A DNA stretch of 33,787 bases, taken from NCBI GenBank assembly GCA_021158045.1, contig JAGGVK010000031.1, positions 1-33,787 of the forward strand, written 5' to 3'. The translations under genes were made by a program, and so were the position numbers. The stretch comes from a bacterium (GTDB lineage Bacteria; Patescibacteriota; Minisyncoccia; Minisyncoccales; CG1-02-41-26). Below the pieces are notes generated by a model. That model saw only the letters and a program-made list of their open reading frames with translations, was not told the origin of the DNA and made no database searches. Shown here one piece after another: positions 946-9,735 of the stretch (position 1 is the stretch's first letter; each line of letters opens with the position of its first letter).

Positions 946-3900
946 CTAAATATCCAAGTTTTTAACTTCCTTTGCTCTTGCCTGCAAAAACTTTTTCCTT
1001 GGCAAAACTTCTTTACCCATTAAGACATCAAAAGTGTGGTCTGCAGCTTCAGCGTCTTCAATACTAACTCTCAAGAGAATACGATTAGCAGGATTCATTG
1101 TTGTCTCCCATAATTCCTCAGGATTCATTTCCCCTAAACCTTTATACCGCTGAATACTTATCTTTGCCTCCTTTTCTTTTCCTGCTTGCTGCCCGCTTTT
1201 CTTTTTCTTCGTTTTTCCGTCTTTAACAAGAGAAGGTTTTTTCAGATAAGACAAAATCTCTTCCTTGTCAGCATCTGTATAAGCATACTCTATTTTTTTG
1301 CCGAGTTGAATTTTATAAAGCGGCGGTTGGGCAATATATAAATAACCTCTGTCAATCACTTCCCTAAAATAACGGAAAAATAAAGTTAAGAGCAAAGTTC
1401 TGATATGAGCCCCGTCAACATCCGCATCGCTCATCAGAATTATTCGGTGATACCTCAACTTTGAAATATCAAAATCTTGGGCTATGGCTGTCCCTAGAGC
1501 AATAATTAAAGATTTAATCTCTTTAGAAGATAAAATTTTATCCAATCTTGCCCTTTCTGTGTTTAAAATTTTTCCCTTTAACGGCAGAATTGCTTGGCAT
1601 CTCCTATCTCTGGCTTGTTTTGCGCTTCCTCCAGCTGAATCACCTTCCACAACATAAAGTTCAGATTCTTCTGGATTTTTAGAGGAACAATCAGCTAATT
1701 TACCAGGCAAAGTCAAACCCTCTAAAATCCCCTTCCTTAAAACAGTTGTCCTAGCTGCTTTTGCTGCCCTTCTTGCTTTTGCTGAAAGCAGACAATTCTC
1801 AATAATGCTTTTTGCGTCTTGGGGATACTTCTCTAAAAAATTACTTAAACCCTCAGAAAGAATAGCTTCTACTGCTATCTTGGCTTCAGGATTGCCTAAT
1901 TTTGCTTTCGTTTGCCCTTCAAACTGAGGTTCTTTTAACTTCACCGATACCACTGCTACTATTCCCTCCCTCACATCATTACCCGTCAGATTTTCTTCTT
2001 TCTCCTTCAAAAAACCATTTTTCCTAGCATAATCATTAAGCGTTCTAGTCAAAGCGCTCCTAAAACCAGTAAGATGTGTTCCTCCTTCGCCTGTAAAGAT
2101 GTTATTAGCAAAGCTCTCTTCAAGAGATTCCATCTCTTTTGCATATTGGAAAGCCACTTCAACTATCACTCCTTCTTTTTCTCCTTTCACATAAAAAACA
2201 TTATTATGGCGAGTCTCTGCCCCATTTACTAAATATTTTACAAAAGAACGAATTCCACCTTCAAAATAAAAATTATATCTAAAAGACAAATTACTCCTTT
2301 CGTCCCTAATGCCTATCTTAACTCCCGGAGTAAGATAGGCTTGCTGGCGAAGATGCGCTAAAATTTTCTTTATGTCAAATTTGATGTTCCTAAATATCTC
2401 AGGGTCAGGCTCAAAAATAATAGTCGTGCCTCTCCTATCACATCTGCCAATTTTTTTCATCTTTGTAGTAGGTTTGCCTTTAGAGTATTCCTGAACATAC
2501 TTCTCTCCACCTCTGCAAATTTCAGCCCTCATATATTTGCTCAAAGCACACACCACTGACACCCCCACACCATGCAATCCTCCTGACACTTGATAGGCTT
2601 TTCCGCCAAATTTTGCCCCAGCATGTAATGTTGTCATTACAGTCTCAAGCGCTGATTTCTTTGTTTGGGGATGAATATCTACAGGAATTCCCCGGCCATC
2701 ATCTACAGTTTTTATTCTATTGCCATCCAAAAGAGAAACCTCTATGCTTTTGCAAAAGCCAGCCATTGCTTCGTCTAATGAATTGTGGCAACAAATGGGA
2801 GAGAACCCTCCTACAAAATTTTCTCCATTTGGCACTGAAACATCATAAACCCAAGGATGAGAATATTTTATTTTTTCAATTTTTCCAACTCTCAAAGCAC
2901 CTAAATTAGAATTCAAAAATTTTAAAGCTCCAGTATTTAAAGCCAACTTTCCCCTCTCTTTTAATAAAGTTGTAATTCCATTTCGAGAAATGCCTGTTTG
3001 CCCCTGATTGATACGGGATAAAGCAGTTCCTTTAAAACGCTTCGCAACTACCTCCTTAAAGGGAAGACAGTTGAAATATAAATAAGGGGGGTGAGTGGGT
3101 GGCATCCAATAAAAATCAATCCTGGAGGTTTGCGCTTTGGGTTTAAATGATGCCTGCTTTATTTTTCCTTTATAATTTACTTTTACATACTCTCTTCTTT
3201 CTTTATGTCCAACTTTTCCAAAACAATAACTCTTTCCTAAAGAGGAAAGCAAATAAGAAAGGGATGAAGTTAATTCCTTGTTTTTACTCAATAAAGAAAA
3301 TTTTGCTCTTTCTTTTCTAATGGGAAAAGTGTCATTTATTAAGCACCTTGTCCAAACATCGGTTGGATAGCCATCGCCGGCTAAATATCCTATCAAATAT
3401 CTTTCTCTAAAACTTTGTGGAAGATTAAAAATTAAATCAGGAACTTTTTTGTTAGAGCTGTTTTCGCCAGTTTTGAAAATCTCTCTAAAGACTAAAGCCA
3501 CTAAATAAGAATCAATAGCTACTGCTCTGGCCGTTTTACAAACATAATAGGAGTTTGGCTTAAAACCAAAAACTTTTCTAATCAGAAAGCAAGTATAGTT
3601 AATTAAGTTTTTCTCTTTAGGCTCCAAGCCAAAAACTACTTTGTTTTGAACATTTTTATTTTTTTCAATACATCCTTTAGCAGCAAAAATGCCCAACAGT
3701 TCAGCTAAATAGCGACCAGTCCTGAGTTTTGGCTTTAACAAAATTTTGGGATTCTGCCTTGTCCCAATTAAAACTTGCGTTTTAATTTTTGCAACATCTT
3801 TGGTTTTGAGTCTTCTTAGTAAATTAAAGGGTAAATAATTACACCGTTTGTAATCATAAAAGACATTAGAAGAGTGTTGAATGCGAGCCTTATCAGCTTT

Positions 3901-4614
3901 TTCTTTAAGGGCTGATTTTAATTGCTGATAAATCTCGCCAGTTAATAAATTTTTGATATTATACAAATGTATATTTTCTGTTTTTTGGGCTGGCAATTTC
4001 AAAAATTCGTCAATTAAATCAATTTCTTCAATTGGATTTTCAACTTCTGGCAAAACTTTTGGAACGACAATTGGTGTTCCAATTTGAATCTCCGACCCTT
4101 TGATTGGCAAAACCTGTCCGTCTTTTAAAGTGAATAAAGAGTGATAGGGAGTAATTTCTACCTGTTGGCCATTTTGCAAAGTAATCTTATAAATTTCACT
4201 ATTAACTTTATGACGAATCAAAGAAAAGACCGGTTGAAATTTCAATTTTAGGTTCTGGTGGTCAAAAGACAATGCTTCAACCTGAAAACTCTTTCTTAAA
4301 ATTTCCGCTTCTCCTTTAATTGATTTTTCCGCTAATTGAGAATTTTTAGCAAAATAATCGTCAATAAATTTTCCAATCTTTTCTATTTTAATTTTCCCCT
4401 TATCCCTTACTATAATAGGAGTATCGTAACTCACACTGTTGTCTACGCACTCCCAAATTAAATGATGCAACCCTTCAGAACCAGTTGAGCCAATATACAT
4501 TCCAGGCCTTCGCCTGACTGGCTCCAGGCCCTTTAGCACATATATGTCCTTGGCTGTATATGACTCCTTTTTAGTTTTTTTTGTTTTTGGTTGTGATTGT
4601 GTTTGCCGTGTCAT
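946..4614 (-). CDS. gyrB: DNA gyrase subunit B precursor interrupted by an intein (670-aa host protein after splicing)
   Basis: MYIGSTGSEGLHHLIWECVDN / SLDEAMAG, GGLHGVGVSVVCALS, ELYVVEGDSAGGSAKQARDRRCQAILPLKGKILN, RYKGLGEMNPEELWETTM. Confidence 0.96.
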   Translation of the reverse strand: MTRQTQSQPKTKKTKKESYTAKDIYVLKGLEPVRRRPGMYIGSTGSEGLHHLIWECVDNSVSYDTPIIVRDKGKIKIEKIGKFIDDYFAKNSQLAEKSIKGEAEILRKSFQVEALSFDHQNLKLKFQPVFSLIRHKVNSEIYKITLQNGQQVEITPYHSLFTLKDGQVLPIKGSEIQIGTPIVVPKVLPEVENPIEEIDLIDEFLKLPAQKTENIHLYNIKNLLTGEIYQQLKSALKEKADKARIQHSSNVFYDYKRCNYLPFNLLRRLKTKDVAKIKTQVLIGTRQNPKILLKPKLRTGRYLAELLGIFAAKGCIEKNKNVQNKVVFGLEPKEKNLINYTCFLIRKVFGFKPNSYYVCKTARAVAIDSYLVALVFREIFKTGENSSNKKVPDLIFNLPQSFRERYLIGYLAGDGYPTDVWTRCLINDTFPIRKERAKFSLLSKNKELTSSLSYLLSSLGKSYCFGKVGHKERREYVKVNYKGKIKQASFKPKAQTSRIDFYWMPPTHPPYLYFNCLPFKEVVAKRFKGTALSRINQGQTGISRNGITTLLKERGKLALNTGALKFLNSNLGALRVGKIEKIKYSHPWVYDVSVPNGENFVGGFSPICCHNSLDEAMAGFCKSIEVSLLDGNRIKTVDDGRGIPVDIHPQTKKSALETVMTTLHAGAKFGGKAYQVSGGLHGVGVSVVCALSKYMRAEICRGGEKYVQEYSKGKPTTKMKKIGRCDRRGTTIIFEPDPEIFRNIKFDIKKILAHLRQQAYLTPGVKIGIRDERSNLSFRYNFYFEGGIRSFVKYLVNGAETRHNNVFYVKGEKEGVIVEVAFQYAKEMESLEESFANNIFTGEGGTHLTGFRSALTRTLNDYARKNGFLKEKEENLTGNDVREGIVAVVSVKLKEPQFEGQTKAKLGNPEAKIAVEAILSEGLSNFLEKYPQDAKSIIENCLLSAKARRAAKAARTTVLRKGILEGLTLPGKLADCSSKNPEESELYVVEGDSAGGSAKQARDRRCQAILPLKGKILNTERARLDKILSSKEIKSLIIALGTAIAQDFDISKLRYHRIILMSDADVDGAHIRTLLLTLFFRYFREVIDRGYLYIAQPPLYKIQLGKKIEYAYTDADKEEILSYLKKPSLVKDGKTKKKKSGQQAGKEKEAKISIQRYKGLGEMNPEELWETTMNPANRILLRVSIEDAEAADHTFDVLMGKEVLPRKKFLQARAKEVKNLDI
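2782..4437 (-). mobile_element. GyrB intein, 552 aa, with LAGLIDADG homing-endonuclease domain
   Basis: Ser1 block A SVSYDTPIIV; block B VEITPYHSLF; DOD motifs LLGIFAAKG and LIGYLAGDG; block F HPWVYDVSVPNGENFVGG; block G CCHN followed by Ser+1. Removal gives VDN-SLDEAMAG, the normal GyrB sequence. Confidence 0.95.
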
Positions 4615-8476: not shown

Positions 8477-8478
8477 AG

Positions 8479-8554
8479 CGGTCGCGATGGGATTTGAACC
8501 CATGATCTTCTCCGTGACAGGGAGACGTGTTAAGCCGGGCTACACCACGCGACC
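8479..8554 (-). tRNA. tRNA-Asp (GTC)
   Basis: Full cloverleaf: acceptor GGTCGCG/CGCGACC, anticodon arm TCTCC-CTGTCAC-GGAGA, T arm ATGGG-TTCAAAT-CCCAT; CCA not encoded. Confidence 0.95.
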
Positions 8555-8607
8555 AAAATAACTTCACAACATCCTATCTTATAGATTTACAGATATGGCA
8601 AATCTTA

Positions 8608-8679
8608 TGACGACGGAGGGATTCGAACCCCCGACTCATGGCTTATGATGCCACTGCTCTACCACTGAGCTACGCCGCC
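8608..8679 (-). tRNA. tRNA with CAT anticodon, elongator Met or Ile(k2C)
   Basis: Acceptor GGCGGCG/CGTCGTC, D arm GCTC/GAGC, anticodon loop ATCATAA, T loop TTCGAAT. Confidence 0.92.
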
Positions 8680-8910
8680 ACAAGCCTCTACAAAAAAGCC
8701 ATTTTTCTTGGAAAGATACAACAGGTATTTTAGATTATACAAGAGAAAAAGGGAAAACCAAAGCCCATAGTTTCCCTTTAATAAGGGGAGCGAAGGGTGT
8801 CTGAGGACTCCGCAGACCCAGTCCCCTTCAACTCGCTGACTTGCTCATATCACAACCAAGCAAGCGGAGTGAATTGAAGAGAGACAATTTTTTTCTTAAA
8901 TTCTATCTTG

Positions 8911-8981
8911 TTGCGGGGCCTGGAATTGCACCAGGGTCTCGAGGTTATGGGCCTCGCAAGATACTACTTCTCCACCCCGCT
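8911..8981 (-). tRNA. Initiator-like tRNA-fMet (CAT), atypical
   Basis: AGCGGGG/CCCCGCA with unpaired A1-A72, TG GAGA (A11-T24), anticodon loop CCCATAA, T arm CCTGG-TGCAATT-CCAGG. Outer stem matches the canonical bacterial initiator. Confidence 0.8.
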
Positions 8982-9057: not shown

Positions 9058-9735
9058 AATCTCAAATCTCAAATCTCAAATCTCAAAATCACATCTCAAA
9101 ATGCAAAATTTCTTTTAATTTTAGATTTTAGATTGTCATTTTTCATTTTTCACTTTTCATTTTTCATTGCCTTGCGAGGAGTCCTGCTGAAAGCAGGATG
9201 ACGCGGCAATCTCAGAACTACGGTAATAAGGGGAAGAGATTGCTTCGTCAGTCGCTGCGCTCCTTCCTCGCAATGACAGAGTAGAAAGAGTCGCTTCACT
9301 TAGGATGACGGTTGGGGATAAAATAAAAAAGATAAGGACTTTTTAAATGACGAAACCCGAATGACGAATGACAAAAAAATGACCAATGACCAAAATCTCA
9401 AATCTCAAATCTCAAATCTCAAAATCACAATTCAAAATTCAAAATGAAAGGTGCAAAACTAAAAAATGATTAAAAATTAAGAATCTCTTTTAATCTTTCA
9501 TTTAATTTGATTTTACATTTTAGATTGTCATTTTTCATTTTTCACTTTTCATTTTTCATTTATTAAACTTGACATCTAACATTTGACATCTTGTTGTGTT
9601 TTGGCATTTAGGCTTTGGATTTGGATTGGCATTTTAATGGCAGAGAGCAGCCCTCTGCCACGGAATAACTAAGGGAAAGAGATGCCAAGAAGCGTTAATA
9701 CACTCAGGGTATTGCCCATGTGTCCTGCTTTATGC
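9058..9735. repeat. Composite intergenic repeat cluster R2 (most complete copy)
   Basis: Heptad block, 45-nt palindrome 9166-9210, 36-nt module 9239-9274, second heptad block 9346-9450, tail TTGACATCTAACATTTGACATCTTGTTGTGTTTTGGCATT. Confidence 0.92.

Follow-up and report, generated by a model that had tools for sequence, protein, structure and literature searches.

The only initiator tRNA found in a Patescibacteria genome probably carries an alternative A18-G55 elbow

We found that a tRNA gene at 8911–8981 on the minus strand of the window (the whole stretch of 33,787 nucleotides that was analysed) very probably encodes the one working initiator tRNA of a Parcubacteria-type Patescibacteria genome, with an elbow that relies on the alternative tertiary pair A18-G55. 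The window is contig 28 of a 54-contig draft assembly of 685 kb that is 98% complete. The function is an ordinary one, carried by an unusual and repeatedly evolved variant of a contact that textbooks treat as invariant.

The initiator tRNA gene and its conservation

ARAGORN called a tRNA-Met(CAT) at 8910–8981, which folds without difficulty, and a sensitive search of the stretch with the Rfam model RF00005 placed it at 8911–8981 with 47.5 bits, above the gathering score of 29, although the tRNA was absent from the whole-window Rfam scan at the gathering cut-off. From residue 1 (8981) to residue 73 (8911) of the minus strand, its parts are AGCGGGG TG GAGA AGTAGTA TCTT G CGAGG CCCATAA CCTCG AGAC CCTGG TGCAATT CCAGG CCCCGCA A. 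The D loop (8962–8968, minus strand) consists of A14, G15, U16, A18, G19, U20 and A21, with A18 at 8965 and G19 at 8964; this register was taken from the AGUGGUA loops of sister initiators. The T loop (8924–8930, minus strand) consists of U54, G55, C56, A57, A58, U59 and U60, with G55 at 8929 and C56 at 8928. The anticodon CAU lies at 8947–8949 on the same strand, directly preceded by C33 at 8950. Short tandem AAATCTC repeats were seen upstream of the gene at 9059–9100.

Like canonical bacterial tRNA-fMet (E. coli metZWV/metY), the window tRNA has the CAU anticodon, an unpaired 1-72 position (A1 and A72, thus no strong pair), G2-C71, C3-G70, G4-C69, the purine-pyrimidine pair A11-U24, G30-C40, G53-C61, U54, C56 and A58. 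Unlike the E. coli type, it has A18-G55 for G18-Psi55, A29-U41 in place of one of the three consecutive G-C pairs at 29-31/39-41, C33, a D loop of 7 nt, a variable loop of 4 nt and an encoded CA end. A second CAU tRNA, a separate elongator tRNA-Met with a canonical GG/TTC elbow, was found by ARAGORN at 8607–8680 on the minus strand, followed by tRNA-Asp(GUC) at 8478–8554 on the same strand, the third member of an fMet-Met-Asp order that about 64 of 110 related loci share. The original prediction had taken the gene for an initiator, and these features, together with the failure to find another initiator, bear this out. The departures that it had listed (C33, the AGG/CCU stem, the D loop AGUAGUA, the T loop UGCAAUU and G at residue 55) are all in the sequence.

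When 40 tRNA places of the genome and the window were rescanned, the two tRNAs in the window were the only ones with a CAU anticodon. A covariance model that included canonical initiators listed no match that was a second initiator in this 54-contig draft (about 98% complete), and so a canonical tRNA-fMet elsewhere, which the original prediction had named, together with lack of expression, as a sign of a pseudogene, was not found. A separate tRNA-Ile(UAU) covers AUA in this genome, and the genes for IF2 and IF3 are present. Orthologues of the tRNA were found in 45 of the 60 genomes searched (its own included), mostly in one copy, and were 97–79% identical over full-length matches; the tRNA of a close relative, genome G002, is 97% identical. 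Among the matches listed, this type of tRNA occurs mainly in MAGs of the Parcubacteria/Paceibacteria type. Matches named Butyrivibrio, Photobacterium, Bacteroidota and other non-Patescibacteria were rejected, as their sequences failed to fold into a tRNA.

Across 27 initiators from this order, 540 of 540 stem cells held standard pairs, 100 cells were double-sided compensatory changes and 12 of 20 pairs changed on both sides. None of 500 shuffles reached the covariation score of these 27 sequences, nor did any slide come near it. The complete stem pairing together with the 100 compensatory cells shows that the initiator tRNA is under selection. Chance and sequencing error, the second of which the original prediction had allowed for, are excluded by this pairing and by the orthologues in 45 of 60 genomes. 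A decaying tRNA with a damaged elbow, whose true counterpart lies elsewhere in the genome or in an assembly gap, is very improbable. A draft assembly and an Rfam score of 47.5 bits, below which only two of the tRNAs listed for the genome fall, would fit decay; against it stand the preserved stems with their compensatory changes, which refute it, the conserved fMet-Met-Asp order, the failure to find another initiator in a genome that is about 98% complete, and the occurrence of the same elbow in phages and in more than 100 genomes (initiator pattern scan, among the matches listed). Low scores or misses of such tRNAs arise because the elbow is swapped. Taken together, the comparative evidence indicates that the window tRNA is the sole start-codon tRNA found in the genome and is not damaged.

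In some relatives about 250 bp interrupt the initiator gene within its anticodon loop (locus L061 of genome G004, at about 1216–1536 on the minus strand; G040:C35; G026:C10). The insert in L061 is a group I intron by Rfam (RF00028, 69 bits).

Coupled exchange of residues 18 and 55

The elbow had been described as eroded. Instead, it is re-paired, with A18-G55 for G18-Psi55 and G19-C56 kept. In sister lineages, a 7-nt D loop AGUGGUA accompanies a T loop with UUC, while the window tRNA combines AGUAGUA with UGC; only residue 18 (A) and its partner 55 (G) are altered, and G19, C56 and U54-A58 are retained. The claim that the D loop lacks its GG pair is thus right for residue 18, which is A, and wrong for G19, which is intact along with C56.

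We examined 104 initiators from across the phylum, found with a covariance model that holds both elbow forms, so that neither form was left out of the sample. Among them, 78 were GG/TTC, 26 were AG/TGC and none was mixed. In a wider set of 524 distinct tRNAs of all kinds, residues 18–19 were read blind to the T loop and initiators selected by pattern were removed. GG occurred with U55 or C55 in 445 and AG with G55 in 77; GG with G55 or AG with U55 was not found among the 524. The rule therefore holds in 522 of 524, and the remaining two are one GA with U55U56, in which A19-U56 is swapped in as a matched pair, and one tRNA that could not be assigned. These counts include related sequences that are not independent, so naive counts overstate the significance. 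The 77 swapped tRNAs comprised 45 CAU, 23 Cys, 6 Leu, 1 Pro, 1 Phe and 1 Gly, from loci that had been chosen around initiators. When tRNA-Cys was tested separately, 23 were AG/TGC, 7 were GG/TTC and none was mixed. The tRNAs that seemed to break the rule by combining a D-loop GG with a T-loop TGC had AGGAGUA loops in which GG is residues 15–16, hence A18/G19. The view that both sides of the elbow changed together is confirmed by this coupling in more than 500 tRNAs, and in these samples A18 is always accompanied by G55. These comparisons indicate that G18-Psi55 is exchanged as a coordinated unit for A18-G55.

Both initiator forms are present inside families f88 and f93, and both tRNA-Cys forms inside the order, which shows that the switch is recurrent and happened more than once. 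The spread of the swap over different isotypes, families and phages points to many separate origins, as far as the compared sequences tell. The swapped elbow is not peculiar to this genome; hundreds of related tRNAs from bacteria and phages also have A18-G55. In the host genome itself, the initiator, tRNA-Cys(GCA) and tRNA-Pro(GGG) are A18/G55. Its tRNA-Thr(GGU) (L015/L007) has G18 A19 with U55 U56, a matched A19-U56 that replaces G19-C56, and similar cases occur in viral contigs. Both of its tRNA-Gln and its tRNA-Ala(CGC) (L027, L030, L025) have C55 with G18 and a T loop with TCC, as do nine CAU tRNAs of relatives.

The pattern AGTAGTA..CATAA..GTGCAA was found in at least 120 viral contigs (L322–L441). 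Of the viral copies that were read, the majority fold as tRNA-Met, and many leave 1-72 unpaired; in these contigs G55 never occurs with G18. The swap is also seen in viral Ser, His, Leu, Gln, Asn, Lys, Asp, Gly and Trp tRNAs. A few viral cells fall outside the rule, with AG and TC in two 'ttta' calls of doubtful quality and GA and TC in a single Thr tRNA; their loops appear to be misparsed. Cultured phages with a swapped initiator-like tRNA are Campylobacter CPX, CP8 and CP81 and Erwinia Cronus and IT22; phage initiator-like tRNA-Met copies outside L322–L441 lie in L443 at 3001–3075 and in L442 at 2989–3063. The copies in Cronus, CPX and CP81 share with the window tRNA an identical D loop AGUAGUA, the T loop core UGCAA and an unpaired 1-72, but they are encoded in phages of other hosts and have U33, a variable loop of 5 nt and an ACCA or TCCA end. 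The CPX record leaves its swapped tRNA unannotated, since tRNAscan-SE 1.21 missed it, while the flanking tRNAs are annotated. A search of the phage collection with the window tRNA gave no close match.

The swapped elbow might instead be an initiator-specific identity element, read by a partner that meets only initiators (such as the N-terminal domain of IF3) or barring the tRNA from the elongator cycle. Initiators are the most often swapped class in the Patescibacteria sample, though its loci were chosen around initiators, and in Cronus and CPX the initiator-like tRNA is the only swapped one among the neighbouring tRNAs that ARAGORN found, the others being canonical. We consider this unlikely, as elongator tRNAs for Cys, Leu, Pro, Gly and Phe and several phage elongators carry the swap too, and sister genomes in the same families carry G18/U55 initiators. 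The swapped tRNA-Cys and tRNA-Pro(GGG) of the host genome further weaken an identity element restricted to initiators as the whole explanation.

Formylation, TruB and the other departures

Neither fmt (Met-tRNA formyltransferase), def (peptide deformylase) nor TruB was detected in the genome (54-contig draft, about 98% complete), in which it differs from the E. coli-type system. Of the 60 genomes searched in the order, 53 lacked TruB, the host genome included; loss of all three genes is common in the order, and fmt and def mostly co-occur in relatives. Bacteria without formylation are known (PMC4014445), and because fmt and def are missing, initiation in this genome is probably formyl-free, with a start Met that probably stays unformylated. 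A check of the residues recognised by MTF, as had been proposed, is moot because no methionyl-tRNA formyltransferase gene is detectable. Likewise, because TruB is absent, the elbows of this genome probably lack Psi55.

Loss of TruB could drive the swap, if without Psi55 the G18-U55 contact is weak and the modification-independent A18-G55 takes over. The widespread absence of TruB in the order is consistent with this, and tRNA-Cys in the order had G18 in 4 of 5 genomes with TruB and A18 in 22 of 25 without it (Fisher p = 0.006, ignoring relatedness). In contrast, initiators outside the order showed no association (A18 in 11 with TruB and 9 without; G18 in 15 with and 12 without), by which TruB loss was rejected as a general cause, and phages swap in hosts that are expected to have TruB. 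A driving role of TruB loss is thus possible, though somewhat doubtful.

We also considered whether one cause, a constraint relaxed once formylation had been lost, lies behind all the oddities together (A1-A72, C33, the anticodon stem and the elbow). With fmt and def absent here, some evidence is in line with this: C1 is kept in 7 of 9 genomes of the order with fmt and in 4 of 19 without it (p = 0.01, ignoring relatedness), and 25 of 26 initiators from genomes lacking fmt are of the A18 form. However, 24 A18 initiators come from genomes that have fmt, A1-A72 occurs together with fmt in 17 genomes, the coupling in the elbow is exact rather than loose, and relatedness inflates the supporting counts. 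A common origin of all these features in relaxed constraint appears unlikely. For residue 1 alone, the tendency of C1 to follow fmt is modest evidence which suggests that A1 of the window tRNA reflects a relaxed MTF signal.

The anticodon-stem pairs A29-U41, G30-C40 and G31-C39 (8954–8952 with 8942–8944) and the loop they enclose span 8942–8954 on the minus strand. Among the matches listed, related initiators have G30-C40 in 110 of 110 and A29-U41 in 87 of 110; the latter is the commonest pair there in both elbow forms, whereas the former is universal. In the same 110, 1-72 is C-A or A-A in 88, A11-U24 occurs in 99 and C33 in 29. C33 was also found in 32 of 128 initiators, 22 of the 50 with A18 and 10 of the 78 with G18; a tie between C33 and the elbow swap was rejected, as C33 occurs with both elbow forms. 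The original prediction had grouped C33 and the AGG/CCU stem with the elbow; judging from the relatives, they are separate, common variations of Patescibacteria initiators that also accompany a canonical elbow. At the 3' end (8909–8912, minus strand), A72 (8912) and A73 (8911) are followed by an encoded CA (8910–8909) instead of CCA; ACCA is present in 54 of the 78 G18-form initiators, and the A18-form ones mostly have ACA. Mycoplasma initiators are known exceptions to the three G-C pairs of the anticodon stem, in which they are relaxed, and eukaryotic initiators show changes at residue 33 or within the T loop. These unusual initiators differ from the window tRNA in that residues 54 or 60 are changed, not the 18-55 pair. 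A54 in eukaryotic initiators is one such change (PMC7912444).

Proposed structure and significance of the altered elbow

In the normal elbow, G18 inserts between residues 57 and 58 and contacts Psi55, and G19 pairs with C56 (PMC4810234, PMC7912444); G18-Psi55 has been called invariant among tRNA pairs (PMC6337575). A recognised variant of the T-loop fold is the UGNRA T-loop, and in the UGAAA T-loops of the FMN riboswitch an adenine is intercalated between residues 4 and 5 (A90 and A38 in L2 and L5) (PMC3764141). The window tRNA has UGCAA, a U-G-N-R-A loop like L2 and L5, with A18 as an adenine available for insertion; the riboswitch loops differ in that they are not in a tRNA and face partner loops other than a D loop. 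All 50 A18-form initiators have A at residue 57, versus 25 of 78 others.

We propose that A18 inserts itself between A57 and A58 to pair with G55, in the manner of the adenine in the riboswitch loops, and that the L shape would be kept in this way without pseudouridine. The flat face of G19-C56 would be intact, so that partners which bind the elbow, such as the L1 stalk and RNase P, could still find their surface. With CAU, an unpaired 1-72, conserved 2-71 to 4-69 and the universal G30-C40, the tRNA would work as an ordinary initiator with IF2 and IF3. We infer that it is aminoacylated, and likewise infer the A18-G55 pairing and its three-dimensional geometry from covariation and the riboswitch analogy rather than from a solved tRNA. 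What is established directly is the sequence, its conservation, the 18/55 coupling, the gene absences and the presence of IF2 and IF3, the tRNA being known here from sequence alone.

A broader reading stands at even chances: a second, modification-free elbow (A18-G55 plus G19-C56) would have evolved repeatedly in Patescibacteria and phages, with initiators favoured, and in this order it would accompany the loss of TruB and of N-formylation, with translation starting without formyl-Met or Psi55. Here both residues of the supposedly invariant G18-Psi55 are replaced together, in phages as well as in the essential initiator of a very large bacterial group, and the lack of intermediates in 524 non-preselected tRNAs makes the requirement of the elbow testable with two point changes. 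Paceibacteria are a place to study both formylation-free initiation and pseudouridine-free elbows. We found no description of the 18/55 swap or of CPR initiator tRNAs in the open literature, to which the search was confined; a laboratory precedent for A18-G55 may exist. Contacts between the D and T loops have reportedly been studied with combinatorial libraries, and those selections may have met A18-G55.

Elsewhere in the window, gyrB (946–4614, minus strand) codes for a protein of 1222 aa, of which residues 112–611 form an intein splicing domain (Pfam PF14890).
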